A stretch of DNA of 64,000 nucleotides from Candidatus Methanoperedens sp. (GTDB lineage Archaea > Halobacteriota > Methanosarcinia > Methanosarcinales > Methanoperedenaceae), in the NCBI GenBank assembly GCA_012026795.1, contig VEPM01000001.1, positions 62,001 to 126,000 of the forward strand. Direction: 5' to 3'. The notes under the pieces were generated by a model. It saw only the letters and a list, made by a program, of their open reading frames with translations. It made no database searches and had not been told where the DNA came from. This document shows positions 1,622-46,894 of this stretch, in pieces. Made by a program: the position numbers and the translations under genes. Each line of letters opens with the position of its first letter. Position 1 is the first letter of the stretch.

Positions 1622-2275
1622 ATGAAAAAGGAATCAATACTTCCGGAATCAAGAGACACTGCTTTCAGGGATCAGGTCTTAAAAACCCATGTCGGAGAGA
1701 AAATCCTGACCTGCATGCAATGTGGAACATGCGCGGGTTCCTGTCCTGTCAGTCACGAAATGGACTATACACCGCGCCAGCTTGTGCGCATGGTGCAGCT
1801 TGGCCTTAAAAAAGAAGTGCTTTCAAGCAACACGATATGGATATGCACGACATGCTTCTCATGCTCTGTCAGGTGTCCGAGGGGAATTCATCCGACAGAA
1901 CTTATGGAAGCGTTAAAACCAATAGCTGTAGCTGAAGGAATAACAAATAAAAATGCAAAGTTCGATAACATTTTTTCAAATATAATTAAGAATAGCGGCA
2001 GGGCTTCTGAATTCCTTCTTATTTCCAGATACAGCCTGGCTGAGCCTGGAATGATAAAACAGCTCCCGTTTGGACTGTCAATGATGACAAAAGGAAAATT
2101 GCCGTTATCTATCGACAGGATGGAAAATACCGGGGAACTGGAGGCTATTTTTAAACTTGGGGAACCGAAGAAAGAAATCAATGGGATCAAAGAAAAAGAG
2201 ACTGGAAAAGAAAAAGAGCCAGAACCAGCTAAAACCGAAGAAAATAAAACTGCAGAAGCGGAGACCAAAAAATGA
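1622..2275 (+). CDS. hdrC: CoB-CoM heterodisulfide reductase subunit C
   Basis: HdrC is the small iron-sulfur subunit that passes electrons between HdrA and the catalytic HdrB in the soluble heterodisulfide reductase, which reduces or, in reverse methanogenesis, regenerates CoM-S-S-CoB. Two [4Fe-4S] motifs are visible: CMQCGTCAGSCP near residue 35 and CTTCFSCSVRCP near residue 78. The Lys/Glu-rich tail after residue 185 makes it slightly longer (217 aa) than the usual 185-190. Start ATG 1622 follows a GGGAG site. An AT-rich TATA-like stretch (ATATTTATATATC, about 1570-1582) precedes it. The stop overlaps the hdrB start by 4 bases, so hdrCBA is one operon. Confidence 0.95.
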   Translation: MKKESILPESRDTAFRDQVLKTHVGEKILTCMQCGTCAGSCPVSHEMDYTPRQLVRMVQLGLKKEVLSSNTIWICTTCFSCSVRCPRGIHPTELMEALKPIAVAEGITNKNAKFDNIFSNIIKNSGRASEFLLISRYSLAEPGMIKQLPFGLSMMTKGKLPLSIDRMENTGELEAIFKLGEPKKEINGIKEKETGKEKEPEPAKTEENKTAEAETKK

Positions 2276-3117
2276 AATATTCCTATTATCCCGGCTGCGC
2301 TTCGCATGGAACCGCGGTTGACTACCGCAGTTCTGTGGAAGCTGTATTCAGCCGCCTTGGCATCGGACTTGAAGAAGTAAAGAACTGGAACTGCTGCGGC
2401 GCTTTGCATGTTCCGGATAGAACTGTAAAGACGGCTCTTTCTGCAAGGACACTTGCATCAGCAAAAGGGCTTGATATGGCAACACCATGCAACCTGTGCT
2501 ATTCAAATCTGATGCGTGCCCGGACTGAACTCCAGGACAGCACCCTTAGAACCAGGGTCAATGAAGCTCTCACCGAAAAATATGATGGTAACACAAAACC
2601 AAAACATCTTCTTGAAGTGATCGTTAAAGATCTTGGATTGCCTAAACTTCAGGAACAGGTTAAAAAACCCCTTAAGATCAGGGCTGTTCCTTATTATGGC
2701 TGTCTCCTGACACGACCGGAAAATAATTTTGACAGCACTGAGAACCCAAGATCACTCGATGATCTTATTTTAAGCCTTGGAGCAGTGCCTGTAAAATATT
2801 ATTATAAAACCAAATGCTGTGGAGGCCCGATCCTGATAACGAATGAAGACCTTGCCCTCAATCTTGCAAAGGAGCTACTTGTAATGGCAAAAGAATCTGG
2901 CGCTGATTGTATAGTTGTCACATGCCCTATGTGCCATCTTCAGCTTGATGCAAAACAAAAAGAAGTGGAATCTAAATACGATATTAAAATCGACCTGCCA
3001 GTTATTTATTTCACGCAGCTTATCGGGCTTGCCATGGGTCTTGACCCGAAGAATCTGGGGCTCTCCCAGCATCTTGTTCCAACCGATAAATTGATCACAA
3101 AAATCGGAGGGAAATAA
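2272..3117 (+). CDS. hdrB: CoB-CoM heterodisulfide reductase subunit B
   Basis: HdrB carries the two non-cubane [4Fe-4S] clusters where CoM-S-S-CoB is cleaved or formed. Both CCG-type cysteine sets are seen: N-terminal YYPGCASHG, NWNCCGALH and PCNLCYSNL; C-terminal YYGCLLTRP, KTKCCGGP and TCPMCHLQ. At 281 residues the length is normal. It overlaps hdrC by 4 bases and touches hdrA (ATG of hdrA overlaps its TAA-TGA end), consistent with translational coupling. No hydrogenase or formate dehydrogenase gene is adjacent, so the electron partner of this Hdr is encoded elsewhere. Confidence 0.95.
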   Translation: MKYSYYPGCASHGTAVDYRSSVEAVFSRLGIGLEEVKNWNCCGALHVPDRTVKTALSARTLASAKGLDMATPCNLCYSNLMRARTELQDSTLRTRVNEALTEKYDGNTKPKHLLEVIVKDLGLPKLQEQVKKPLKIRAVPYYGCLLTRPENNFDSTENPRSLDDLILSLGAVPVKYYYKTKCCGGPILITNEDLALNLAKELLVMAKESGADCIVVTCPMCHLQLDAKQKEVESKYDIKIDLPVIYFTQLIGLAMGLDPKNLGLSQHLVPTDKLITKIGGK

Positions 3118-5420
3118 TGACAGAAAATGAACATCCAAAGATCGGCGTGTACCTTTGCAGGTGCGGAGGCAATATCGGTGATGTGGTTGACCTCCAGGCA
3201 GTTGCGGATAAGCTCAAAGAAGATAAGAATGTTACTGTGAATATCCAGGATTACCTTTGCAGCAGCGTTGGGCAGGATAAGATAAAAAACGATATAGAGA
3301 AGGGAAAAATCGACCGTGTTGTAATAGGTTCATGTTCGCCAAAGCTGCACCTTGAAACGTTCAGGGGGATGGCGAAAAATGCGGGACTTAATCCCAATCT
3401 TCTTGAAATAACGAATATCCGGGAACAGGCAAGCTGGGTTCATGACAGGGACAGTAAGGAAAGCGTGAACTCAAAAGTAAAGGGCCTGATAAAAGGCGCT
3501 GCGGCCAGGATGGGTTCAATAGAGCCGCTGACACCTCTTACAAAGGATCTTGTGGACAGGACGCTTGTTGTGGGCGGAGGGATTGCCGGAATAACAACAG
3601 CACTTGAGCTTGCTGATTCGCATGAAGTGATATTGATAGAGAAACTGCCATATCTTGGCGGCCACATGATAGGCCTTTCAAAAACATTCCCTACGCTTGA
3701 TTGCTCGCAGTGCATCCTTACACCGAAGATGGTTGCGGTTCACAATAATCCCCGGATCACAATGTTCACACAGACTGAAGTTGCAGATGTCCAGGGAAGC
3801 CCGGGGGATTATTCCATTACCCTGAAACATAGCCCGCGCTATGTGGATATCAAGAAATGCATAAACTGCGGCGCATGTGCAAGGAAATGTCCGGCTGGCG
3901 CAATATTTCTTCCATTTGCCCAGGCTGTCCCGCAGGCGTACATGATCGATATGTCAAAATGCAAGAATTGCGGCGTATGCGTAAAAGTATGCCCGCGCGA
4001 TGCGATAAATCTTGAAGCAAAAGAAGAAACAAGTACGATTTCCGTGGGCGCAGTTACGATCGCGACCGGATTTGAACCTATTGACCCGTCGTTTATAGAA
4101 GAATATAATTATCCGTCTCCAAACATTCTCACTGCTATTGAATTTGAGGAAATGTTATCAGCAAAGAGCAGGACCGGGATGAGATTACAGAAAGCTGACG
4201 GGACATTCCCGAACAGGGTCGCTTTCGTACTGTGCGCAGGGAGCAGGGATTTCACAGGCAAAGGGAGAAAACATTGTTCCAGAGTCTGCTGCATCTACTC
4301 CCAGAAGCAGGCGCAGCTTGTGAAAAAAATGAAAGAGGACGCAGAGGCCTGGATTTTCTACATCGACATGCGTTCTGCCGGAAGGAGGTTTGAGGAATTC
4401 TATAACCACACTCAGGAAAAAGGTGTTAATTACGTACGTGGAAAGGTCGCGGAAATAATTCCCAAAACAGATGGCACTCTCATGGTACAGTACGAGGATA
4501 CCAATCTTGGCAGGAAAGGCCGCGAAATATTTGATATGGTCGTACTTTGTCCTGCTCTAATCCCCCCAACAGGCACAAAAGAAATCGCTGATAAGCTTGG
4601 AGTATCTCTTGGCGATGATGGTTTTATCGAGGAAAAGCATGTCAAGCTTGACCCTGTAAACACACTTAACCAGTCTGTATTTGCGGCAGGATGCGTGCTT
4701 GGCCCCAAGGATATCCATGATTCTGTTACTGAAGGAATAAGTGCAGCCCACAAGGTTTCTCAGTTCCTCGGTAAAGGCATGATACTTATCCCTCCTGAGA
4801 AACCGCAGATATTTGAGTGCAACGGGTGCGGTGATTGTGTGAAAGCCTGTCCGTATAATGCGCTTGCTCTTGTTGGTGGAAAAGCGACGTTGTCGCCTCT
4901 TGCCTGTACAGGCTGCGGAATATGCGTGCCCGCCTGCCCGATAAAAGGCATCGAGATAAGAAATTTCACACGCGGCCAGTTAAAGGCGCAGCTTCAGGGA
5001 ATACTGAGTGAAGCTTCCGGTGTTATCGTGTTCATCGACCCGTATGCTTATGCAGCGGCTGATATTGCAGGAGTTAACAGGAAACAATACTCCTCTCTTA
5101 TCAGGTTCATGAGCGTTCCTTCCATACATATCCTTGATTCCGATGTGGTCAATGCGGCTTTTGAATATGGCGCAACTGGTGTGATGCTCATCGAAGGGAC
5201 GACGGATGAGAAACTCACATCGCGCTCTGATGACCTGTACAAGAAGCTCAAGAAAGATACTCGAAAGTATAAAAAACCGTTCAGGTATTCACATATTGAG
5301 ACTGCGCAGTATGAAAAATTGACTGACCTTTTGAATGTGTTCGCTTCACAGGCGGGAGCGAAGGCTGAGAAGCGGGGGAGGAAGGAAAAAGGGGAAAGCT
5401 CTGAAGTGGGAGAGGAATGA
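3117..5420 (+). CDS. hdrA: heterodisulfide reductase subunit A with a cysteine-less MvhD-like C-terminal domain
   Basis: HdrA is the FAD protein that performs electron bifurcation or confurcation. Visible in order: the N-terminal LCRCGGNIGD region; the FAD-binding VVGGGIAGITTALELA (about residue 151); TFPTLDCSQC; a double ferredoxin insert (CINCGACARKCP, CKNCGVCVKVCP, about residues 247-300); the VLCAGSRD...HCSRVCC cluster site (about 373-390); and a C-terminal double ferredoxin (CNGCGDCVKACP, CTGCGICVPACP, about 565-615). The 767-residue length exceeds the roughly 650-670 of classical HdrA. Residues about 635-740 align by eye with MvhD (AAADIAGVNRKQY corresponds to the MvhD 'GADLAGVSRxQY' stretch) but all cluster-binding cysteines are replaced: VFIDPYAYA where MvhD has CNWCSYA, and MSVPS where it has a Cys. 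The last 20 residues are charged and low complexity. Confidence 0.93.
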   Translation: MTENEHPKIGVYLCRCGGNIGDVVDLQAVADKLKEDKNVTVNIQDYLCSSVGQDKIKNDIEKGKIDRVVIGSCSPKLHLETFRGMAKNAGLNPNLLEITNIREQASWVHDRDSKESVNSKVKGLIKGAAARMGSIEPLTPLTKDLVDRTLVVGGGIAGITTALELADSHEVILIEKLPYLGGHMIGLSKTFPTLDCSQCILTPKMVAVHNNPRITMFTQTEVADVQGSPGDYSITLKHSPRYVDIKKCINCGACARKCPAGAIFLPFAQAVPQAYMIDMSKCKNCGVCVKVCPRDAINLEAKEETSTISVGAVTIATGFEPIDPSFIEEYNYPSPNILTAIEFEEMLSAKSRTGMRLQKADGTFPNRVAFVLCAGSRDFTGKGRKHCSRVCCIYSQKQAQLVKKMKEDAEAWIFYIDMRSAGRRFEEFYNHTQEKGVNYVRGKVAEIIPKTDGTLMVQYEDTNLGRKGREIFDMVVLCPALIPPTGTKEIADKLGVSLGDDGFIEEKHVKLDPVNTLNQSVFAAGCVLGPKDIHDSVTEGISAAHKVSQFLGKGMILIPPEKPQIFECNGCGDCVKACPYNALALVGGKATLSPLACTGCGICVPACPIKGIEIRNFTRGQLKAQLQGILSEASGVIVFIDPYAYAAADIAGVNRKQYSSLIRFMSVPSIHILDSDVVNAAFEYGATGVMLIEGTTDEKLTSRSDDLYKKLKKDTRKYKKPFRYSHIETAQYEKLTDLLNVFASQAGAKAEKRGRKEKGESSEVGEE

Positions 5421-9656: not shown

Positions 9657-10514
9657 TCAGATATAAAGCCCTCCATTAATATCAATAACCTGCCCTGTTA
9701 TGTAATCTCCTTCATGCGATGCCAGGAATGCAACAGTTCCTGCGACTTCGGATGCTTTCCCGAGTCTTCCAAGCGGGATCCTGGCAACGACCTTTTCCAT
9801 TGCCTCGGCAGACATGCCTTTTACCATATCCGTTTCAATGAACCCTGGCGCTATTGCGTTCACAGTGACACCTTTTCCCGCGAATTCCCTGGCAAGCGCT
9901 TTTGTCAAACCTATCATCCCGGCTTTGGATGCAGCGTAATTTGTCTGCCCGAAGTTACCCATCCTGCCTATGACAGATGAAATATTCAATATCCTGCCAT
10001 ACTTCCTTTCAAGCATTCCGTCTATGAATGCCTTGGTGCAGTAAAAAGTACCATCGAGATTCACTGATAAGACATCACTCCACATATCAGGCGTCATTTT
10101 AACGAAGGATTTATCCCTCACGATCCCTGCATTATTGACAAGGATATCCACCTTCCCGAATTTCTCAATAACCTCTTCACGCATTTTGTTTACCTGCCCG
10201 GGATCGCTCACATTCGCCTGGCACATGCAGGAATGGCATCCTTTTGATTCTATCAGGTCAGATATCTCCTTTGCATGTTCCTTACAATCCATTTTCCCGA
10301 TCTTTTCAGTAATTTCTCCCAGGGAATCTGCCATTCCCATGCGGTCTATCAACTTTGAAACCATCTGGGCATGATCTTTTGTATTCTGGTAGTTAATAAC
10401 AACATCAGCCCCTTCCTCCGCGAGCTTTATTGCAATTGCACGACCGATCCCCCTTGAACTCCCTGTTACAAGAGCCACTTTATTTTCCAATTTTCCTTTT
10501 CTATTTCCCTTCAT
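9657..10514 (-). CDS. SDR-family 3-oxoacyl/acetoacetyl-CoA reductase with an inserted segment
   Basis: A short-chain dehydrogenase of the FabG/PhaB type: nucleotide-binding VTGSSRGIGRAIA, NNAG at the end of beta-4, catalytic Ser in NISSV, YAASKAG for Tyr and Lys, and the C-terminal TGQVIDINGG. It should reduce acetoacetyl-CoA to (R)-3-hydroxybutyryl-CoA for PHA synthesis. At 285 residues it is about 40 longer than usual. The extra part (about residues 46-90) appears to be an internal duplication of a helix: KDHAQMVSKLIDRMG is echoed by KEHAKEISDLIESKG, followed by a Cys-rich CHSCMC. Start ATG 10514 follows AGGTGA, which overlaps the phaA stop. It is the last gene of the PHA operon. Confidence 0.85.
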   Translation of the reverse strand: MKGNRKGKLENKVALVTGSSRGIGRAIAIKLAEEGADVVINYQNTKDHAQMVSKLIDRMGMADSLGEITEKIGKMDCKEHAKEISDLIESKGCHSCMCQANVSDPGQVNKMREEVIEKFGKVDILVNNAGIVRDKSFVKMTPDMWSDVLSVNLDGTFYCTKAFIDGMLERKYGRILNISSVIGRMGNFGQTNYAASKAGMIGLTKALAREFAGKGVTVNAIAPGFIETDMVKGMSAEAMEKVVARIPLGRLGKASEVAGTVAFLASHEGDYITGQVIDINGGLYI

Positions 10515-10518
10515 AAAT

Positions 10519-11697
10519 TCACCTTTTGACTACAATTGCAGCGCCCATCCCCCCACCGATACATAGCGTTGCAAGACCATTCGTACCATTTTTTCGTCTT
10601 AATTCATGCACAAGTGTGACAAGTATTCTTGTCCCGCTTGCACCTATTGGATGTCCGAGCGCAATAGCGCCGCCATTCACATTGACTTTATCAGTACTCC
10701 AGCCCATCTCCCTGTTCACTGCAATGCTTTGCGCTGCAAACGCTTCGTTTGCTTCTATGAGATCAAGCTGGCTGACAGAAATATCCGCCCGCTGCAAAGC
10801 TTTTTTGCTTGCACTGATCGGGCCTGTTCCCATAATATCCGGGGACACACCTGCGGTACCATAACCTTTGATAGTAGCCAGTATTTCCAGGCCTTTTTCC
10901 TTTGCTTTTTCTTCTGACATAAGAAGCACTGCCGCTGCCCCGTCATTGATGCCTGATGCATTTCCAGCTGTCACAGTCCCGTCCTTTTTAAAGGCGGGTT
11001 TGAGCTTTGCAAGAGCCTCTTTTGTTGTCCCGAACCTGGGGAATTCATCTGTATCAAATAGAACAGGCTCACCTTTTGGCTGCGGGGCAGGAACAGGAAC
11101 TATCTCATCCTTGAACTTCCCGCCTTTAATGGCAGCTTCAGCTCTCTTCTGGCTTTCTGCCGAGAGCTCATCCTGCTCAGCCCGGGAGATACTAAATTTT
11201 GTTGCTATGTTCTCGGCTGTGACACCCATGTGATAATTATTGAAAATATCCCAGAGACCATCGTGTATCATTAAGTCCACAAGCTCTTCATTTCCCATCT
11301 TGGCTCCCCAGCGCGTTTTCCTTGATGCATATGGGGTTGTGGACATTGATTCTGTCCCTCCTGCCAGGATAACATCGGCGTCACCGAGCATGATCGCCTG
11401 GGTTCCCAGGATAACCGATTTTAAACCTGAACCGCATACCTTATTTACGCTGAATGATGGAACCTCATCAGGGATGCCTGCTGTTATTGCTGCCTGCCTT
11501 GCCACATTTTGTCCATGGCCTGCAGAGAGCACATTTCCCATTATGACTTCATTCACTTCACTCCCTGATGTTTCCGATCTCTTCATAGCTTCCTTCAGTA
11601 CCACCGAACCAAGCTGCACCGGGCTTATCTCTTTCAGGCTTCCCCCGAACTTTCCTATCGCTGTACGTACAGCAGATACTATAACGACATTATTCAT
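10519..11697 (-). CDS. phaA: acetyl-CoA C-acetyltransferase (beta-ketothiolase)
   Basis: Condenses two acetyl-CoA to acetoacetyl-CoA, the first step of PHB formation. All thiolase landmarks are present in the 392-residue protein: nucleophilic Cys in [11 protein letters not shown] (about residue 88), [12 protein letters not shown], the His motif [16 protein letters not shown] (about 345), and the second Cys in CIGGGMGAA (about 378). The length is standard. Start ATG 11697 has GAGG upstream. It is 22 bases downstream of the preceding SDR gene and 4 bases upstream of the next, in one operon. Confidence 0.92.
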
Positions 11698-11719
11698 TAT
11701 TTTGCCTCTACTTATTGAA

Positions 11720-12460
11720 TTATAATAACAGTCCGCCGTCTACGCTTATCACAGCACCGTTAATGAAACTTGCTTCATCCGAAGCCAGGAATAACAGTGT
11801 GTTCGCAACGTCCGCTGGAGTGCCAAGCCTCTTAAGAGGCGTCTTTTCCCTCATCATTTCAAGTATTTTTTCAGGCACGGTTGCTGTCATCGGGGTATAT
11901 ATGAATCCCGGCGCAACCGCATTTACCCGTATGCCTTTTTTCCCCAGTTCCTTGGCAAGTGTCTTTGTCATACCCACTAAACCGGCTTTGGTTGCAGCAT
12001 AATTCGTCTGCCCTACATTACCATACAGGGCAACTATTGATGAAATATTTAAGATCACTCCGCTTCCCTGGGAAATCATTTGTCCGACAACTGCCTGGAT
12101 ACAATTAAAAGGTCCTTTCAGGTTGATATTTATAACTTTATCCCACTGTTCTTCTGTCATTTTCACTACAAGAGCATCCTGGATAATCCCGGCATTATTT
12201 ATTAATACATCTATTCTGCCATATTTTGCTACTGTTTCTATCACGACCTGCTTTGCTTGTTCCCTGTTGGAAACATCGAGTCTTGCAAAAAAAGCCTCCC
12301 CTCCTGCATTTTTTATTAATTCGACCGTTTCTGTCCCTCCGTTTTCATTTACATCTGCAATTACGACTTTAGCGCCTTCTTTTGCAAACAAAATCCCGGT
12401 CTCTTTACCGATTCCGCTTCCACCTCCGGTGATAATCACTACTTTATCTTTTACCCTCAT
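11720..12460 (-). CDS. phaB: acetoacetyl-CoA reductase (SDR family)
   Basis: A compact 246-residue SDR of the FabG/PhaB type: [16 protein letters not shown] for nucleotide binding, NNAG, NISSIV with the catalytic Ser, NYAATKAG with Tyr and Lys, and ISVDGGLLL at the end. It is the second ketoreductase of the operon and has the normal length, so it is the better candidate for the housekeeping PhaB. The start overlaps the end of phaC by 17 bases, which implies coupled translation. Which of the two reductases prefers NADH or NADPH cannot be read with confidence. Confidence 0.88.
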
Positions 12461-13607
12461 GTAATTCCTTCTTTGATTTTCTTTTAGATGTCTTATTTTT
12501 AATATTGGGTCCGGGAGTTATTTCTTCATCAAGACCTGACCTTGGGGTTAACCATTTTGAGATCCGGGGGCAGACTTCTTTCTGGGATTTTGATCCCACG
12601 AATATGCCTATATGACCTGTGGGAAAAACCACCATCTCTTTTTCTTTGCTTGATACAGCATCATTGAGCGGTATACTTGCTTCGTTTGGTACAAGATGGT
12701 CAGTTTCTGCCATTACATTGAGAAGAGGCATGGTTATGTTTTTCAGATTGATCTTTTTTCCATCGAGTTCAAACTTGTTCTGTATTAGCAGGTTTTTCTG
12801 GTAACCGTCTTTAAAGAACTGCCGGAATGCTTCGCCAGCCTGGTCAGGGCTGTCGAAGATCCATTTTTCCATTCTCAAAAAGTTCTTCACTGTTTCTTCG
12901 TTTCGGATAGTGCAAGCCTCATCGCCGGGTTTACATTCTATCCGGTCGAACATTCCCACATATTTGTCGATCATGAGCCTGAATGGGTCTGTCAATAAGA
13001 ATCCTGAATTCAGGAAATCTCCTGGTACTATCCCGTAGTAATCAACGATCTTATCAACGTCGAGATTTTTTGCCCAGATATGAAGAAGTCCTTTTTGTGT
13101 ATCAAAATTAACAGGCGCTACAAGTGTTATGAGATTCTTGACTTTTTCAGGATGTAACGCTGAATACATAACAGAAAAAGTCCCACCCTGGCAGATCCCC
13201 ATAAGTGTGATCTTATCCAATCCTGAACGCTTTCTTACTAAATCCACAGCATTATTTAAGTATCCGTTGACATAGTCATCTAATGTGAGATACCTATCCA
13301 TTCCGGAAGGGTATCCCCAATCAATGATATATACATCAAAACCATCATCTAATAGCTTCCTGACTACACTTTTATCCGGCTGAAGGTCAAGGATATAATA
13401 ACGGTTCACAAGAGCATATACCATCAATATCGGTACTGGATGGGTTTTCTCCACAGTTGGTAAAAAATGGAGAAGTTTCATTTTATCTTCAGTATAGATT
13501 ATTTCATGAGGTGTTGTGCCAACTGATATTTCTGGCAGTTTCAAAAGTATTTGAAATCCGCTCATTAATTTACTGTATTCCTTTTCTATTGAACTAAGTT
13601 CATACAT
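12444..13607 (-). CDS. phaC: class III poly(R)-hydroxyalkanoate synthase catalytic subunit
   Basis: PhaC polymerises (R)-3-hydroxyacyl-CoA to PHA at the granule surface. The alpha/beta-hydrolase fold carries the synthase lipase-like box GICQGG with nucleophilic Cys (about residue 139), Asp in ETDHLVPNE (about 300), and His in GHIGIFVG (about 336). The 387-residue length and the adjacent PhaE genes identify class III. The protein ends in a Lys-rich tail. It follows phaE by 27 bases in the transcript. PHA storage is well documented in Methanoperedens and uncommon in other methane archaea. Confidence 0.93.
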   Translation of the reverse strand: MYELSSIEKEYSKLMSGFQILLKLPEISVGTTPHEIIYTEDKMKLLHFLPTVEKTHPVPILMVYALVNRYYILDLQPDKSVVRKLLDDGFDVYIIDWGYPSGMDRYLTLDDYVNGYLNNAVDLVRKRSGLDKITLMGICQGGTFSVMYSALHPEKVKNLITLVAPVNFDTQKGLLHIWAKNLDVDKIVDYYGIVPGDFLNSGFLLTDPFRLMIDKYVGMFDRIECKPGDEACTIRNEETVKNFLRMEKWIFDSPDQAGEAFRQFFKDGYQKNLLIQNKFELDGKKINLKNITMPLLNVMAETDHLVPNEASIPLNDAVSSKEKEMVVFPTGHIGIFVGSKSQKEVCPRISKWLTPRSGLDEEITPGPNIKNKTSKRKSKKELHEGKR

Positions 13608-13634
13608 AATCTCGACCCCTTGGAAATTGAATGA

Positions 13635-14186
13635 TTATTTATTCCCGACTAATCCATCGATCCTGCCGGATAGTTCCTTTACCTGCTTTTTCAGGGAATA
13701 TAATTCCTTATTTAATTCATCTATATCGGATTTTGTCGGAAGGTTGGATGGTTTTAGATAATTTTCTTCAAGCATTTCCCGGTTATATTTTTGAACATCC
13801 AGGAAATTTGATGTGAATTTTCCCATATCCGAAGAGAAATGGCCTGATTTCATGAATTCTTTGAATGTTTCACTATATGATTCCATCCAGGAATTATAAA
13901 ATTCCTTATAACTTTCCGTACCTGTCTTGCCTTCTAAAGTTACCCTTTTTGCATTCATTCGCTTCATTGCTTCCATGGAAATATCCTGGAAATCGATGAC
14001 TGTATCCATCCATGATGAATATAGGCTAAAGAAAAGAGGAAAACCTTTATATATTTTTTCGGTTTTCTCCCGTAATGGCCCTACCGCTGGAACTTCGGAT
14101 ATCTTGCCTAAGGTTGCTTCATAAGTTTGTACCCACATGTCAAGAAATTCATGTGTGGATTCAAATTTTGTCTCTTCCATATTCAT
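13635..14186 (-). CDS. phaE: PHA synthase subunit PhaE
   Basis: PhaE is the non-catalytic partner needed for class III PhaC activity. The C-terminal half has the family layout: a KEFYNSWMESYSETFKEF helix, the YNREMLEENYLKPSNLP linker and a final coiled coil (TKSDIDELNKELYSLKKQ) that ends in SGRIDGL. I chose ATG 14186, which overlaps the stop of the upstream gene as ATGA; an in-frame upstream start at 14228 would create a 46-base overlap without benefit. From it the protein has 183 residues, short compared with bacterial PhaE (about 350), because the N-terminal repeat region is carried by the neighbouring gene. Confidence 0.82.
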   Translation of the reverse strand: MNMEETKFESTHEFLDMWVQTYEATLGKISEVPAVGPLREKTEKIYKGFPLFFSLYSSWMDTVIDFQDISMEAMKRMNAKRVTLEGKTGTESYKEFYNSWMESYSETFKEFMKSGHFSSDMGKFTSNFLDVQKYNREMLEENYLKPSNLPTKSDIDELNKELYSLKKQVKELSGRIDGLVGNK

Positions 14187-15277
14187 ACCTTTGTAGCGCT
14201 TGCCATACGGCTGAACGAATTCATCCACATTTTTGACATCTTGATCGATGTGTCCGAATAAGTCTGATATGCGCTTTTTACAGGTTCCATCATATCTTTT
14301 AATGGACCCACAAGAGGAACGCTTTCAAAGATATCTTTAGAAGTCTTTTCATACATATTTACCCAGAGATTATAGAACTCCTTAAAAGTTTCAGGATCAG
14401 TGGTCAGTTTCGACTGGTCTTTCATTTTTTCAGACATCTTTTCAAGTGCTTCCGTCCAGGATTTGAAGAGGTTTATACTGACATCAGTGCTCTCTTTAAG
14501 ATTATCCAGTATTTCTTTTGAAGGTGTCATTGTCTTGGGGTCAAACACCTTTGAAGAGGCTTCTTTGTAGGTATCAATCCACAAATCATAAAATTCTTTA
14601 TATGTTTCAGGATTCGCCTCACCTTTAGATAATTTTGCCATTTGATCTGAAAATTTTTTGATGGAATCATCTGATGGAGTATATAATTTAGAATACACTT
14701 CTTTGATTTGTTTTGCCATCTTCGCTATTGACTCCGAATAGAAGTCAGGTATCCCTGTATAACGTCCGAAAGCATTTCTCTGATATTTGATTGCAGGATG
14801 TTCATTGATATCATCGATAACTTTTTCATAAGTCTGCATCCAGCTATCATAAATCTCCTTGTATTGTGCAGGATCACTTCCGTTATTCAGGACATGCGTT
14901 GTCTTCTTTGAATTTTCCCCGAACTCCTGGATCCAGGACATATAAACTTTATTCGACTCATCTGCAATTTTAATAAAATCTTCGAGTGCTTCCCTTGGTG
15001 AGGAAATCTCGGCCTGAAAGATCTTACCATATGTATCATTATATGTTTTTATCCACTCTTCATAAAATTCTTTATATTTTATTGGTGAAGCGTTCATGGA
15101 CATATCTGCCATTTTCAAAGAATTATCTCCAACGAACTCTATAAACGGTTTATAAAGTTTAATGTTTGAGTCACTCCACAACTTTAAAAATTCGTTCGAA
15201 TTATCTACCCACAGGTTGATAGCATTCTTTACTTCACGCATTTCGTTTGCTAATTTCTCCTCACTTTCTTTAACCAT
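14183..15277 (-). CDS. PhaE-like/phasin-like protein built of four helical repeats
   Basis: The first gene of the PHA operon encodes a 364-residue helical protein with four copies of a motif of the form P-x-x-YKEFYxxWIxTYxxxxxKIF at about residues 66-86, 136-156, 219-239 and 297-317. The same motif occurs in PhaE next door, so this protein looks like a PhaE N-half expanded by tandem duplication. It probably coats granules or scaffolds PhaC/PhaE. No signal peptide or enzyme motif is present. Start ATG 15277 follows GGAGTGA. A PHA granule-associated role is inferred from repeat similarity and operon position. Confidence 0.75.
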   Translation of the reverse strand: MVKESEEKLANEMREVKNAINLWVDNSNEFLKLWSDSNIKLYKPFIEFVGDNSLKMADMSMNASPIKYKEFYEEWIKTYNDTYGKIFQAEISSPREALEDFIKIADESNKVYMSWIQEFGENSKKTTHVLNNGSDPAQYKEIYDSWMQTYEKVIDDINEHPAIKYQRNAFGRYTGIPDFYSESIAKMAKQIKEVYSKLYTPSDDSIKKFSDQMAKLSKGEANPETYKEFYDLWIDTYKEASSKVFDPKTMTPSKEILDNLKESTDVSINLFKSWTEALEKMSEKMKDQSKLTTDPETFKEFYNLWVNMYEKTSKDIFESVPLVGPLKDMMEPVKSAYQTYSDTSIKMSKMWMNSFSRMASATKV

Positions 15278-30924: not shown

Positions 30925-31281
30925 TCACATTTCCTCGATCTTCTTGATACTCATAAGCGGATAATCCTTTTCTTCATCATAACGCATTTCTGCATGGGCA
31001 ATTACATTTTTATAAAGCACCTGTAAACTTACATGCAGCATGCGTCCTTCCAGTTCACAATATCCGAATCCAGGATTTTGTTTTTTCTTGACCATTTCGC
31101 TATCTATAGTAACACTGATGCTTCTCACGAAAGGCTGGACTTCTATGCTTTCTTCGATTATCCTTGAAAGACCATCAAGCGTTTCCGTATTTATTGGCGT
31201 GCCGACGAACTGGTGATACAATGCACCAAGCTTTATCCCGGCTTCAAAAACAGCCCTGTCACGATTATTTATTTCTGTCAT
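30925..31281 (-). CDS. mptD: archaeal dihydroneopterin aldolase (DUF372)
   Basis: 118 residues of the archaeal MptD/DUF372 type: FEAGIKLGALYHQFVGTPI, then SIEVQPFVRSISVTID and GYCELEGRMLHVSLQVLYKN. MptD makes 6-hydroxymethyl-7,8-dihydropterin, an early step in tetrahydromethanopterin synthesis. It follows pssA on the minus strand with a 17-base overlap and is the last gene of the lipid block. Confidence 0.88.
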   Translation of the reverse strand: MTEINNRDRAVFEAGIKLGALYHQFVGTPINTETLDGLSRIIEESIEVQPFVRSISVTIDSEMVKKKQNPGFGYCELEGRMLHVSLQVLYKNVIAHAEMRYDEEKDYPLMSIKKIEEM

Positions 31282-31951
31282 ATAATTTCATACCTATTGG
31301 ACTTAAAACGTAAACCATAATAAGGATAAACAGGAGCAATGAACCTTTTTTTACCAGGTCTGTTAATCCGAGATAAAATGCGGCAATATTGAACACAAGG
31401 ACTATTACCAGGGGTGCAAGGGTAAGGGGATTTTTTATTTTGGGATAACTTACGGTGCTTACCATCAACAGTGATAAAATAACAAGAAGTGCCAAAAAAG
31501 CATATTCAAAATAAGGAACAATATCCTTTACCATGATAAATAATGCTACTATGAATCCACCTGCTGTTATGGGAATTCCTTCAAATCCATCCTTTTTACC
31601 TGAAACGTTGAACCTGGCAAGACGCAATGTGCCGCAAACCATGAAAAAAGCAGGAAAAACCAGCGCGAAATTTCCAAGATTTGAAAGAACAGTGTATGAA
31701 ACAACCGCTGGCGCAACCCCGAACGAGATAACATCGGATAATGAATCAAGATTCGCGCCAAGAACACCGGTCCCGAAATACCTTGCCACCGCACCATCAG
31801 CGCCATCTGCTATTACTGCAAGAAGTATCATTATGAGCGCGATTTCCATCTCTCCGCGCAGGGTCATTATTATTGAGAACAATCCCAGTAACGCATTTAC
31901 AAGAGTAATGATATCTGCCGGTTTAATGAGTTTCAGGATATTTTGTCCCAT
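31265..31951 (-). CDS. pssA: archaetidylserine synthase (CDP-alcohol phosphatidyltransferase)
   Basis: 228 residues with about 7-8 membrane helices. The CDP-alcohol phosphotransferase motif is complete: DGADGAVARYFG followed by GANLDSLSDVISFG (Asp-Gly-x2-Ala-Arg-x8-Gly-x3-Asp-x3-Asp, with one extra residue pair). It joins serine to CDP-archaeol. ATG 31951 is preceded by AAAGGAAACAGGC; a longer frame to 32032 overlaps asd and adds a polar segment unlike the family. Product substrate assignment follows from the neighbouring decarboxylase. Confidence 0.88.
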   Translation of the reverse strand: MGQNILKLIKPADIITLVNALLGLFSIIMTLRGEMEIALIMILLAVIADGADGAVARYFGTGVLGANLDSLSDVISFGVAPAVVSYTVLSNLGNFALVFPAFFMVCGTLRLARFNVSGKKDGFEGIPITAGGFIVALFIMVKDIVPYFEYAFLALLVILSLLMVSTVSYPKIKNPLTLAPLVIVLVFNIAAFYLGLTDLVKKGSLLLFILIMVYVLSPIGMKLYDRNK

Positions 31952-31997
31952 GCCTGTTTCCTTTTTAGAATATTTTGCCTTATATCTGTTTCCTTCT

Positions 31998-32645
31998 CTA
32001 TATCTTATGTTCTTTATCTTTTTTCCTAGCAATTATAGTCTCGGCAGCTTTTACCTTATCATTCAGCCCGACTGTAAAAACATACCCTTCCGGTATCGTG
32101 ACATCCACCCTGGAACCAAAACGTATCATTCCGATACGCTCCCCCCTCAACACATAAGTCCCTTCGCTTATGTATGAAACTATCCTCCGCGTCAGGACAC
32201 CTGCGATTTGTGTTAGTTCAAGAGTCCCTGCTGCCGTACTAAATACAACATGGTTCCTTTCATTTACATCGGAATCCTTGTTAAATGCCGGGATATAACC
32301 TCCGGGCTTATAATCGATATGGGTGACTGTACCGGAAAGCGGTGCACGGTTCACATGGACATTATGGATATTCATAAAAATACAGACGGTCCTGTTCTGG
32401 ATAGATATCACCTTTCCATCAGCAGGCGACACTATATCATCTTCATCTCCGGGCGGTGTTCTCTCCGGGTCGCGAAAGAATATAATGAAAAAAATTGAGA
32501 GGATAAACCCTATAACAAATAACAAAAATAAGATCGCTGATATCCCAAACGAGCCGGATATTTTAAATTTATTAAAAGCAACCAAGGACGCGATAGTAAA
32601 AAGAAAAATTCCCAGAATCCATGGGAACGAACCTTTAGCCATCAT
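31998..32645 (-). CDS. asd: archaetidylserine decarboxylase proenzyme
   Basis: About 215 residues. Two membrane helices at the N-terminus are followed by the decarboxylase domain: FRDPERTPP, SPADGKVISI, FMNIHNVHVNRAP and MIRFGSRVDV, in which the Gly-Ser pair is the self-cleavage site that yields the pyruvoyl group. It converts archaetidylserine to archaetidylethanolamine. I chose ATG 32645, with GGAGG 11 bases upstream. It overlaps artA by 11 bases and precedes pssA by 46. The trio artA-asd-pssA on one strand is a functional neighbourhood. Confidence 0.9.
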   Translation of the reverse strand: MMAKGSFPWILGIFLFTIASLVAFNKFKISGSFGISAILFLLFVIGFILSIFFIIFFRDPERTPPGDEDDIVSPADGKVISIQNRTVCIFMNIHNVHVNRAPLSGTVTHIDYKPGGYIPAFNKDSDVNERNHVVFSTAAGTLELTQIAGVLTRRIVSYISEGTYVLRGERIGMIRFGSRVDVTIPEGYVFTVGLNDKVKAAETIIARKKDKEHKI

Positions 32646-33450
32646 TCTTAAAAATTCCTCCCACAAGGTTCAGGACGCCATCGATCATATCGATTATCTC
32701 CGGAAGGATTTTAAGGACAGCATAAGCTACCAGGAATAATGCGATCAATGAACCTATTTTTGCTATTACGGTGTGTGCGATATAAAAACTCATTTCCGGA
32801 TCGCCAAACCACATCATCCCGTAAGCATCAACTACAAAAACGTTTCTTATAAGATTTAAACCATATATTACGGGAACTGAGATAATGAAAGCCGGAGCCA
32901 GCCTCTTTATCGGGGCGTTGGCACTTGCTATTATCCCGATAAATAATGCTATACTTTCAATAGCCGTACATGCAAGGATTATTTCCACTTTATAGCCATT
33001 CACTGCTATCAGGTTCCAGTCAAGCCTTGTTATCGTTATTCCAAGGATCGATCCGGTCCATACGGTCTGGTCAGTGACTGTCGAGATTATCCATGAATTC
33101 ATTGAAGGGATCCCGGAGAAGAGAAAATAAGAAATACCACTAATTGCGACAGCTGTGGTCATCATAGAAATAGAGGCCAGTGTGTCTATCCCATTTATTT
33201 TACCAAACAATCTCCTGTCCTTTTTTATCATAAGATAACCTATGAAAATGCTGAAAAACGCTGCAAAGATCGTCAGGGATACATTGACGTAATCTTCCAG
33301 TTCATAATAATGCTGCCACTGGAAAATCCAGTGTATTGAAAAAAACAGCCAGCTTACTCCTGCAAGAGGAAGTTTGATCTTATTATGAAGCGGTATAAGC
33401 GAAGCTATAATAAGCAATCCAAGCGCCAGCCAGATTATACTTTCTATCAT
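32635..33450 (-). CDS. artA: archaeosortase A
   Basis: 271 residues with about eight membrane helices. The three archaeosortase catalytic residues are visible in order: Cys in ILACTAIESIAL (about residue 160), Arg in GLNLIRNVFVV (about 203), and His in YIAHTVIAKIGS (about 225). ArtA cleaves PGF-CTERM signals of surface proteins and passes them to a lipid anchor. In Haloferax, ArtA processing depends on PssA and PssD, and here artA sits directly in front of asd and pssA. No PGF-CTERM substrate is present in the window. Confidence 0.9.
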   Translation of the reverse strand: MIESIIWLALGLLIIASLIPLHNKIKLPLAGVSWLFFSIHWIFQWQHYYELEDYVNVSLTIFAAFFSIFIGYLMIKKDRRLFGKINGIDTLASISMMTTAVAISGISYFLFSGIPSMNSWIISTVTDQTVWTGSILGITITRLDWNLIAVNGYKVEIILACTAIESIALFIGIIASANAPIKRLAPAFIISVPVIYGLNLIRNVFVVDAYGMMWFGDPEMSFYIAHTVIAKIGSLIALFLVAYAVLKILPEIIDMIDGVLNLVGGIFKNDG

Positions 33451-43140: not shown

Positions 43141-46065
43141 ATGAAAGAAAACAGGACAATTGAAAACCTTAACAACCGATTAATTAATAATCTGGATTTA
43201 GTTTTTATCCCGATACTTGTCATTTTAGCTATAATCTTCGTCCTGATACCTTTTTTTAACCAGGGATTACTGAGAATTATCTTTGCGTTACCTTTGATAT
43301 TCTTCCTTCCCGGGTACCTGCTTATTGCAGCAATGTTCCCAAAGCGCGGGGAATTAAGTTCAATTGAAAGATTTACATTTAGCATCGTCTTTAGCATAAC
43401 AATAATTGTTTTTGACGGATTTGGCCTTAACTATACCCGGTGGGGTTTTAAGTCCGATTCGATAACATTAAGTTTATCTTTGATTATCGGGATTCTTTTC
43501 TTATTAACATTTATCCAGAGATGGAGATATGGAAAAGAAAGTTATAGTTTTACCATTTCGGATATAAGATCTTTTTATCATATCCTCAAAAATAAAGATC
43601 CCGAAACCGGGCCTGATCATACTCTTGAAAAGATGCTGATCAAAACAATGATAATATCCATACTTATTGTCAGTGCAATGATGATCTATGCAAAAGTGAC
43701 TACCGAACCTGAGAAATTTACATCTCTTTATATCCTTGGCTCAGATGGAAAAGCTGAGAACTATCTGACTGAAGTCAGCATTGGCGAACCTTATTCAATA
43801 TTGGTAGGAGTAGAAAATTATGAATATGCACCTGTAAATTTTACGCTCAGGGTGAGTTTCGGAGGAAAATATCTGAAAGAATATCCTGTTATTCTGGATC
43901 ACAATAGTAAATGGCTAAACAATGTCACATTTGTACCTGAACTGGTATCTTTTATAGCGCGTGGGGATAAAACAAAATTGGGGTTCGAACTATTTAGAGA
44001 CAATAAATCTTACAGGGAAGTCCATCTTATGGTTAACGTCAACCCGGATTCAGTCAAATTCTCAGAACTTCCCGACCTCATTAACGGCGATATGGAATCA
44101 GATAAGGGCTGGTTGTTTTCCGGAAGCAGTCCTGATATCAAAGGTAGCTATATAAATGAAACAATCTCCTCCAGAGTTTATGAAATAAGCTATAGCTCAA
44201 AAAATCCTGGTTCCTCTGGAATCATATATCAGGATCTAACGACCCGGGGGGATGTACTGGCAATGCTTTCATTTGATGTCATGGATTCGGAGTATTCAAA
44301 TACATCATCAATTGCATTCAAACAGGCATTACTTGACGGACAGGTCATATGGGAAACAAGGATCGGGGATAATAATAACACCTGGGCACATATTGAAGTG
44401 CCGGTACTGTTGTCGGGGAAGAATACTCTTGCATTTCGGGTTTACAGTAATTCAACCGATGATCTGGAAAGAACTGTCCTGTGGGATAATATAAAATTAA
44501 AACTTTTTAAAGGCGGATTGCCTCGATTAGGAGATACTCTGGAAAGGAAGGGTCTGGCAGTTAAGTTATATAATTTTTCGAACACTGAAAATTTCTCTTC
44601 ATTAAATTTTATAATTGAAAATACAGGAAAAATAGAGAAAAATGTGAGTTTAAAACCAGCTCCTGTCATAATCGATGATCTTGACAATCAATATGAGATG
44701 TTAGGAATCGGATTGAATGACCGGGTAAAAATATCGCCAGTTTATCCCGGAGTCTTAAAGAAAGGAACGATAAGTTTCAGGCCGGTAAATAATAGTGCAA
44801 AAGATCTCAGGATAATCCTATATCTGAATGGGGAGAAGTACGAATTCAACTATCATGTCGAACCGAAAATACTAGGCGAGGATGGGGATACATCTGATAA
44901 CATAAATGCAACTATGGGAGATATAATTACTAAAAATGGATTTGAGGTCATGTTAAATGGCTTTCAAAACGCACCTGGAGTGACTTCCCAGGTCAGTATT
45001 TCTGTCAAGAACATAGAAAGTGAAGAGAAACCATTTAAATTAAATCCATCTGCGATGCTGATCGATGATCTTGGCAACCAGTATGGGATGGTTATAATCC
45101 AGAGAAGCGGCCAGATAAAACAGACCACTGTTTATTCCGGGGCAATAAGAAGAGGTATTATATTTTTCAAGCCAATAAATCCTGATGCAAAAGATCTCAA
45201 GTTGATTCTATATTTAAATGAAAATAAATATGAATTCAATTTCAAAGCACAAGCAATAACATTGGAAGAAAAGGGTTTTTCCAATAATATTTCAAAAGAA
45301 ATAAATGCTGGTCCGGGAGATACGATCACTCAGGATGGATTTGCTTTGATGTTAAAAGGATTTCAAAACACTCCTGGTTGGTATTCCCAGGTTGATATTG
45401 CTGTCAAAAATATGGAAAATGAAAGAAAGCAATTTTACCTATCTCCGATAATTATTGATGATCTGGGCAACCAATACGAGGGCATTAATATCCAGAGAAG
45501 CACCCAGATAAAATTATCCCCCATATATCCCGGGGTTGTAAGGAGAGGTTCTATGTTTTTTGAAGAAATAGATCCTGATGCAAAAGACCTCAGGGTGATT
45601 ATGTATTTGAACGGGAAGATGTACAAATTTGGCTTAAAGGCCGAATCAAAAGTATTGGGCGATAGTGATCTTCAAGGCGATATATCGGCCTATTTTCCGA
45701 TTAATGCTACTATGGGAGAAGCACTCACCCGGGGTGGATTAGAAATAAAACTAAAAAGCTTTCAAAATACTCCTGGCTGGAATTCCCAGGTTTTTATTGA
45801 AGCCAGGAATATTGAAAATGAAGACAAACAATTCAAATATAATTTGTCTCCGGTACTCATCGATGATCTTGGCAATCAATATGAAATGGTTAATATCAAA
45901 AGGAACAATAAGATAGAACAAACTACTATAGCCCCACTTGCCCGGATAGAAGGTGCAATACTTTTTGAGCCGATAAAGGCAGAAGCAAAATATATTATAT
46001 TTGTTTTGCCCATTTCTTCAGATAAATATATATTTGGTTTTGAACAGAAGAATACTTTCATTTAA
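43141..46065 (+). CDS. DUF1616 membrane protein with four extracellular beta repeats
   Basis: 974 residues. The N-terminal about 200 residues are the DUF1616 domain: membrane helices around IIFALPLIFFLPGYLLIAAMFP (quoted part FFLPGYLLIAAMFP) and YTRWGFKSD. A jelly-roll-like domain follows (about 310-455). The last about 500 residues contain four copies of a DUF4352/TRF2-like beta domain of about 125 residues, each with IIDDLGNQYE or a variant (about residues 516, 641, 772 and 912), preceded by GFQNTPGWxSQV and followed by DAKDLRxILYLNGxKYEF. It is exposed to the outside. DUF1616 proteins often accompany archaeosortase genes, but their role is unknown. Confidence 0.85.
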   Translation: MKENRTIENLNNRLINNLDLVFIPILVILAIIFVLIPFFNQGLLRIIFALPLIFFLPGYLLIAAMFPKRGELSSIERFTFSIVFSITIIVFDGFGLNYTRWGFKSDSITLSLSLIIGILFLLTFIQRWRYGKESYSFTISDIRSFYHILKNKDPETGPDHTLEKMLIKTMIISILIVSAMMIYAKVTTEPEKFTSLYILGSDGKAENYLTEVSIGEPYSILVGVENYEYAPVNFTLRVSFGGKYLKEYPVILDHNSKWLNNVTFVPELVSFIARGDKTKLGFELFRDNKSYREVHLMVNVNPDSVKFSELPDLINGDMESDKGWLFSGSSPDIKGSYINETISSRVYEISYSSKNPGSSGIIYQDLTTRGDVLAMLSFDVMDSEYSNTSSIAFKQALLDGQVIWETRIGDNNNTWAHIEVPVLLSGKNTLAFRVYSNSTDDLERTVLWDNIKLKLFKGGLPRLGDTLERKGLAVKLYNFSNTENFSSLNFIIENTGKIEKNVSLKPAPVIIDDLDNQYEMLGIGLNDRVKISPVYPGVLKKGTISFRPVNNSAKDLRIILYLNGEKYEFNYHVEPKILGEDGDTSDNINATMGDIITKNGFEVMLNGFQNAPGVTSQVSISVKNIESEEKPFKLNPSAMLIDDLGNQYGMVIIQRSGQIKQTTVYSGAIRRGIIFFKPINPDAKDLKLILYLNENKYEFNFKAQAITLEEKGFSNNISKEINAGPGDTITQDGFALMLKGFQNTPGWYSQVDIAVKNMENERKQFYLSPIIIDDLGNQYEGINIQRSTQIKLSPIYPGVVRRGSMFFEEIDPDAKDLRVIMYLNGKMYKFGLKAESKVLGDSDLQGDISAYFPINATMGEALTRGGLEIKLKSFQNTPGWNSQVFIEARNIENEDKQFKYNLSPVLIDDLGNQYEMVNIKRNNKIEQTTIAPLARIEGAILFEPIKAEAKYIIFVLPISSDKYIFGFEQKNTFI

Positions 46066-46894
46066 TCCGGTTCAATGCCATCATTATTCCAAAACTGATT
46101 ATTATGAAAATAAACCATCCGATGTATACATGGACAAACATCATTTTTTCAATGCCATAATAATAACCAATAATATATAATATTGAAACCCTTATCAAAT
46201 TAGAAAAGTAAGAAATGATTACAGCTAAAAATATCAATAAATAGATCTTTTTATTTTCAGTGATATGTTCTATCTTAACATATCCCACAATAATGCCTAA
46301 AAGCAGCATCATTGAATAGAGGCCAGAGCAGGGTCCGCCTATTACAACGGTAGCATCTTCAAAACCATTGAAATGAACGGTCTCAATCCCGACAATATGC
46401 AGGTCAATATTCGTTAAAGAGGTTGCAATGAAAAGAGAGGGGAGCAGTACAAAATAATGGTCAAAATCATGAATGAAATCATTTTTTAGAGATGGTAATA
46501 TTACATAGAACAAAAGGAATAATAGAATAAATGTTCCGGACATGTATATTCCGAATTCGCCCGTCTGCCTGTACTTGCCTGCACCATAAACGATAAAAGA
46601 TATGCCCATAAAAAGAGCCATGGAATCAAGAGTACCGAGCTGATTCATGGCCTTTAGATTATATAAGATATCGGCAAATAATATAAATATTCCAAGCACA
46701 ATGCAAGATTTTGAGCTTTTTGTTATGTATGCGCCCTGAAGCTTAAACTGTGTTGTAAGTCCCAGACTAATGAGAAACATTAGGATTCCTATCGGGATGG
46801 AGCCTTCACTGAATTGAATTGTTGCGCCTGTGAAAAAAGCCAGTACAAGTAGAACTACCAGGACATTATGTTTTTGCGTATTAATAATCTTCAC
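46058..46894 (-). CDS. artC: archaeosortase C (PEF-CTERM type)
   Basis: 278 residues with about nine membrane helices. Catalytic Cys in VVIGGPCSGLYSMMLLLG (quoted GGPCSGLYSM, about residue 189), Arg in FSNLIRVSILYIIG (about 234) and His in FVHVYIGWFIFI (about 254) match the exosortase/archaeosortase mechanism. The PCSGLYSM context is that of the PEF-CTERM-specific archaeosortase C. It is convergent with the DUF1616 gene (8-base overlap) and shares the locus with a PEF-CTERM protein. Confidence 0.88.
   Translation of the reverse strand: MKIINTQKHNVLVVLLVLAFFTGATIQFSEGSIPIGILMFLISLGLTTQFKLQGAYITKSSKSCIVLGIFILFADILYNLKAMNQLGTLDSMALFMGISFIVYGAGKYRQTGEFGIYMSGTFILLFLLFYVILPSLKNDFIHDFDHYFVLLPSLFIATSLTNIDLHIVGIETVHFNGFEDATVVIGGPCSGLYSMMLLLGIIVGYVKIEHITENKKIYLLIFLAVIISYFSNLIRVSILYIIGYYYGIEKMMFVHVYIGWFIFIIISFGIMMALNRIK

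Follow-up and report, generated by a model that had tools for sequence, protein, structure and literature searches.

An HdrA of Candidatus Methanoperedens carries a conserved MvhD-like domain without the [2Fe-2S] cluster ligands

Why would a heterodisulfide reductase subunit HdrA retain, within its own chain, an MvhD-like domain without any cysteine that could bind the [2Fe-2S] cluster? The question is raised by an operon in the window, i.e., the whole 64,000-nucleotide stretch of Candidatus Methanoperedens sp. DNA analysed here (contig VEPM01000001.1). The operon is composed of hdrC, hdrB, and hdrA alone, all on the + strand and overlapping at their ends. hdrC, the first gene (1622..2275, 217 aa), and hdrB (2272..3117, 281 aa, with both CCG motifs present) were identified from the ORF list and by Pfam/NCBIfam, and hdrA (3117..5420, 767 aa) additionally by its matches to HdrA structures in the PDB and by its cofactor residues. 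The HdrA protein comprises the N-terminal, thioredoxin-reductase, inserted ferredoxin, and C-terminal ferredoxin domains, followed by the MvhD-like tail, a type Ia-like arrangement, and its nearest named relative is the HdrA of Ca. Methanoperedens sp. BLZ2 (96% identity). Upstream, on the opposite strand, lie an amino-acid permease gene and uvrA, and downstream a region without clear genes followed by opposite-strand genes; no mvhD, frhB, fdh/FdhB, or hydrogenase gene is found beside the operon. The remaining part of the window contains genes for two SDR reductases, a thiolase, a PhaC-like synthase, and PhaE-like proteins (9657-15277, - strand), by appearance a polyhydroxyalkanoate synthesis cluster, a single ORF of 4,996 aa (48237-63227, + strand) with many repeats of adhesin-like and carboxypeptidase-regulatory-like modules, and genes for two archaeosortase/exosortase-like membrane proteins (31265-33450 and 46058-46894, both on the - strand), the former adjoining phosphatidylserine synthase- and decarboxylase-like genes.

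The tail occupies residues 637-743 of HdrA (5025..5345, + strand) and was delimited by PF02662, the predicted fold, and the cysteine columns. It matches PF02662 (FlpD) with 40.3 bits (E 3.8e-10) against a cut-off of 22.3, and with 41.1 bits at window 5025-5345 in a search of the whole genome, confirming the original prediction that the C-terminal part of HdrA is MvhD-like; both MvhD-type motifs quoted there are found in it. A profile-profile comparison with cysteine-bearing MvhDs gave 98% probability (E 2.9e-14). The tail structure modelled with AlphaFold2 from 30 orthologues (pLDDT 89.8, pTM 0.85) is likewise of the MvhD type, its only PDB matches at E<=1e-3 being the MvhD/ElpC chains 5odh_D, 5odc_D, 8rvu_F, and 7bkb_F of the Mvh-Hdr, Elp-Hdr, and Fdh-Hdr complexes (TM 0.66-0.76, identity 19-24%). 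The Pfam, profile-profile, and fold matches rule out a chance resemblance. The model of full-length HdrA is too poor (pLDDT 71.9) for placement of the tail.

Alignment to MvhD shows that all 51 orthologous tails lack every one of its five conserved ligand cysteines, and the tail of the window HdrA has no cysteine of any kind, so the predicted loss of the ligands holds and extends to all the orthologues surveyed. The first Cys pair of MvhD aligns around Asp641-Pro-Tyr; Asp641 (5037..5039, + strand) lies in the segment aligned to CCxxC, where the assignment to the individual Cys may be off by one residue. Ser669 (5121..5123, +) replaces the Cys of 'RVMC' and is Ser in 50 of the 51 orthologues, while Gly694 (5196..5198, +) stands at the Cys of 'GCxxGxC', the remaining loop being shortened. 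Thus, the cysteines are replaced, as had been proposed, but by residues somewhat different from the Ile/Asp/Ser/Glu originally listed. Residues 723-735, RYSHIETAQYEKL (5283..5321, +), aligned to 'RLEWISASEG' of MvhD, hardly vary within the clade of alkane oxidisers. Cysteines are present in three other PF02662 domains of this genome, those of two standalone MvhDs and of an HdrA2-MvhD fusion, so that within the genome the ligand loss is specific to the window HdrA.

The rest of the protein aligns over its full length with solved HdrA structures (5odc_A, E 5.5e-155; 8rvu_a, E 3.7e-158). No [4Fe-4S] cysteine is missing for any of the six clusters, Cys197 included, the bifurcation residues Glu356 and Lys409 (5ODC numbering) are present, and the C-terminal ferredoxin domain (residues 556-618; 4782..4970, + strand) has all its eight cysteines. 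The [2Fe-2S] cluster of MvhD is the sole predicted gap in the usual wiring of the window HdrA. In two other HdrA proteins with cluster-free tails (L187 and L191, of families f14 and f7) a cysteine of the C-terminal ferredoxin is also gone (position 620, 5ODC numbering), and in L193/L203 this domain is absent while the tail is present.

The tail is under strong constraint. Its median dN/dS between Methanoperedens species is 0.033, as against 0.034 for the bulk of the HdrA flavin domain and 0.059-0.082 for the other parts of the protein, and with a mean column identity of 83% over 24 sequences from several families it equals the most conserved HdrA domain. It is followed by a short, charged, fast-evolving extension outside the fold (residues 745-767; 5349..5417, + strand; dN/dS about 0.29). 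The tail is retained in every intact orthologue found and in the distant HdrA1 proteins. At one locus of the ANME-3 genome HMMV2 (L154:3999-4643), located after hdrC-hdrB, the first ~50 residues of HdrA are joined out of frame to the tail and about 560 residues are absent, owing to either a gene deletion or an assembly error.

Orthologues with 83-96% identity occur in 29 of the 31 Methanoperedens genomes, and the HdrA proteins of other ANME-2 and of GoM-Arc1-type (ethane-oxidising) archaea are 63-69% identical. In an order-level survey three sister families gave tail-profile scores of about 190-208 bits for most of their genomes; the scores were at most 37 bits in the Methanosarcinaceae genomes, none of which contained the subfamily. 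A scan of record names yielded 57 loci from Methanoperedens, ANME-2, Ethanoperedens, Argoarchaeum, archaeon GB37, ANME-3 HMMV2, and Methanosarcinales/Methanosarcinaceae MAGs. All those whose record names a known lineage belong to ANME or ethane-oxidising archaea; the titles of several Methanosarcinales/Methanosarcinaceae MAG records say nothing of lifestyle, and no named methanogen is among the 57. A loss restricted to Methanoperedens is ruled out by these two surveys and by that of HdrA1 described below. It is this HdrA subfamily, not the cysteine loss itself, that tracks alkane oxidation.

The gene order hdrC-hdrB-hdrA is conserved in Methanoperedens and in most ANME-2 loci, while the Argoarchaeum hdrA stands alone. 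Against 63-69% identity of HdrA between Methanoperedens and ANME-2, that of HdrB is only 31-33%, and the Methanoperedens HdrB shows 50% identity to the HdrB of the organism's own C7 cluster. Comparison of window 1622-3117 with loci L127-L154 likewise showed HdrB and HdrC to be strongly divergent between Methanoperedens and ANME-2. The similar HdrA and divergent HdrB point to HdrA having kept its identity while HdrBC was exchanged around it, which extends an earlier remark on ANME HdrA1, whose partner is mostly HdrB2C2 (PMC9012536). Among 35 flanking regions no conserved partner gene was found, only hdrC, hdrB, and hdrA being broadly recurrent; the other recurrent groups are antisense ORFs or genes of a few ANME loci.

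Cluster-free tails are also found beyond the subfamily. The HdrA1-type tails of Methanosarcinaceae match FlpD with 54-61 bits (34.6 in one case) and have no ligand cysteine; one of these proteins (L036) is probably HdrA1/MA3128 of M. acetivorans C2A. The fused tail of Methanocella-like HdrA is likewise cysteine-free, the two genomes concerned being presumably those of Methanocella arvoryzae and M. paludicola. Further cluster-free tails belong to families f7 and f20 and to second HdrA copies in genome G036 and in one Methanoperedens genome (L043). A second, HdrA1-like protein of this kind is present in some Methanoperedenaceae (L043 and L091), and the L043 gene has its own hdrC and hdrB. The original prediction had tied the cysteine loss to methanogenesis run in reverse; the same loss in the HdrA1 of methanogens and in Methanocella-like HdrA shows that it is not specific to that process, and a link with the direction of methanogenesis is ruled out.

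The trees of the HdrA core and of the tail, both with long branches, fit one origin of the cluster-free proteins. In the core tree, computed without the tail, a constraint uniting these proteins was not rejected (p-AU 0.62) and even exceeded the unconstrained search in likelihood; in the tail tree a single branch sets the cluster-free domains apart (SH-aLRT 99.6), and the same split has SH-aLRT 93.4 after removal of the ligand columns. Most likely, the ancestor was an HdrA-MvhD fusion in which the cluster was lost once, a scenario provisional in view of the long branches. The alkane-oxidiser subfamily, whose own branch is very long (0.85 changes per column), most likely diverged along it after the cluster loss. 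Position 356, Ala in HdrA1 and Glu in the alkane-oxidiser subfamily, marks the two as distinct.

With the ligands lost across the whole branch, the usual third electron entry is probably closed in all its members. We consider it about an even bet (probability roughly 0.5) that the window protein is the flavin-bifurcating HdrA of a soluble HdrABC, that its fused MvhD domain now serves permanently as a structural part without redox function, and that F420 reacts at the flavin. In the Elp-Hdr complex, a mobile arm is built from MvhD/ElpC together with the N- and C-terminal domains of HdrA, and the [2Fe-2S] cluster of MvhD/ElpC supplies the partner HdrA's flavin with electrons (PMC12350162). By analogy, the tail would stay in such an arm and pass no electrons, the route from hydrogenase, Fdh, or FdhB via [2Fe-2S] to FAD would be closed, and the third couple, most likely F420/F420H2, would exchange hydride directly at the HdrA flavin. 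In ANME, CoM-SH/CoB-SH (via HdrBC) and reduced ferredoxin would then confurcate to F420, a scheme already put forward for Methanoperedens (PMC4683180). Since F420H2 oxidation by the M. acetivorans HdrA2B2C2 proceeds without additional subunits (PMC5296606), exchange directly at the flavin would be the simplest entry left, though the HdrA2 in that measurement still has a cluster-bearing tail. Electrons might also still enter through the C-terminal ferredoxin clusters, which are intact, and the separate MvhD of the C7 cluster could bind the window HdrA too. A retained part deprived of its cofactor has a parallel in ElpA, which lacks molybdopterin yet is kept structurally (PMC12350162), and the Molybdop protein has been argued, by prediction, to be a scaffold (PMC12054007). 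The earlier view of the fused domain as a structural surface is thus in keeping with its MvhD type, the missing cluster, and the strong conservation, and is not supported in its link to reverse methanogenesis; a different electron partner for the window HdrA is conjectural, no partner gene being conserved beside hdrCBA.

Four other explanations of the tail may be considered. A possible, clearly less favoured one is that it gained a new binding role, the MvhD fold docking another soluble partner or ligand through a new conserved surface; ferredoxin, an F420 oxidoreductase, or a membrane complex would be similarly tentative candidates. The near invariance of RYSHxETAQ-EK and AYAAADxAG in Methanoperedens, ANME-2, and ethane oxidisers speaks for it, and so does the length of the subfamily branch, expected after a change of role. 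However, ordinary MvhD shows conservation of AYAAADxAG and of the last helix as well, so the conservation may reflect the fold and the contact with HdrA, and no partner gene accompanies the operon. Somewhat more doubtful is the proposal that the tail fills the MvhD site and bars MvhD/FrhB/Fdh modules encoded elsewhere, insulating two Hdr pools. A fused domain at the MvhD position would exclude free MvhD, and the genome does encode two cysteine-bearing MvhDs, in a separate hdrA/frhB-type cluster, as well as the HdrA2-MvhD fusion; yet the position of the tail is putative, and such blocking would add to the structural, non-redox reading instead of excluding it. It is very improbable that a cluster is still held by non-cysteine ligands or by cysteines of HdrB/C or of a second subunit: His726 is invariant and His671 almost so, but the tail is cysteine-free with a shortened ligand loop, and the distant cluster-free tails have no common alternative ligand set. 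Least credible of all is a functionless, decaying remnant, which would account for the loss of every ligand but is contradicted by the dN/dS and column identity given above and by the presence of the tail in every intact orthologue and in distant HdrA1.

A bolder reading, to which we give limited confidence, is that a whole HdrA lineage dropped the MvhD redox entry and turned the tail into a new partner- or F420-docking module; one subfamily, its bifurcation core intact and its RYSHxETAQ surface invariant, would form an HdrABC dedicated to CoM-SH/CoB-SH oxidation in the anaerobic alkane oxidation of ANME-2 and ethane oxidisers.

A 2025 survey recognises type Ia HdrA by an MvhD that bears a single [2Fe-2S] cluster and suggests that electron transfer gains from the fusion (PMC12054007), and in a review M. 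acetivorans HdrA1, unlike HdrA2, is said to have no MvhD extension (PMC6019823). BLZ2 was reported to have four hdrA genes, two of them fused with mvhD, with no mention of cysteine loss (PMC5690323); these two probably include the window-type HdrA. No report of the cysteine loss or of a cluster-free class was found in the literature searched, mostly the main texts of openly available papers. A large conserved HdrA group has the MvhD fold without the capacity for a cluster, and its tails separate the structural role of MvhD from the redox one. This changes the electron donors that can be assigned to these Hdr complexes, and a tractable methanogen offers a test.

Among the known systems, the canonical HdrA of the Mvh-Hdr complex (5ODC) has in common with the window HdrA all the [4Fe-4S] ligands, C197, E356, and K409, but it has no tail and receives electrons via a separate MvhD. 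MvhD/VhuD/ElpC (PF02662; 5odc_D, 7bkb_F, 8rvu_F) have the fold of the window tail, while being separate subunits with a [2Fe-2S] cluster, whereas the tail is fused and devoid of the ligands. HdrA2 (MA2868 type, type Ia fused to MvhD) resembles the window HdrA in domain order, the E356/K409 core, and the fused FlpD domain, and some of its members are paired with HdrBC similar to that of the window operon; nevertheless, HdrA2 tails keep all the MvhD cysteines (the copy in the same genome, on C37, and L093, L195-L199, L204, and L205) while the window tail has none, and the window HdrA scores 691.4 bits against the HdrA2 equivalog NF040770, below its cut-off of 1100. HdrA1 of Methanosarcinaceae (NF041778, MA3128 type) is like the window HdrA in its fused FlpD domain (34.6-60.8 bits) with the ligand cysteines absent, and the cores and tails of the two group together in trees, provisionally in view of the long branches, but their identity is about 35%, residue 356 is Ala in HdrA1 and Glu in the window HdrA, and the score of the latter against NF041778, 561.5 bits, lies below the 1400 cut-off.
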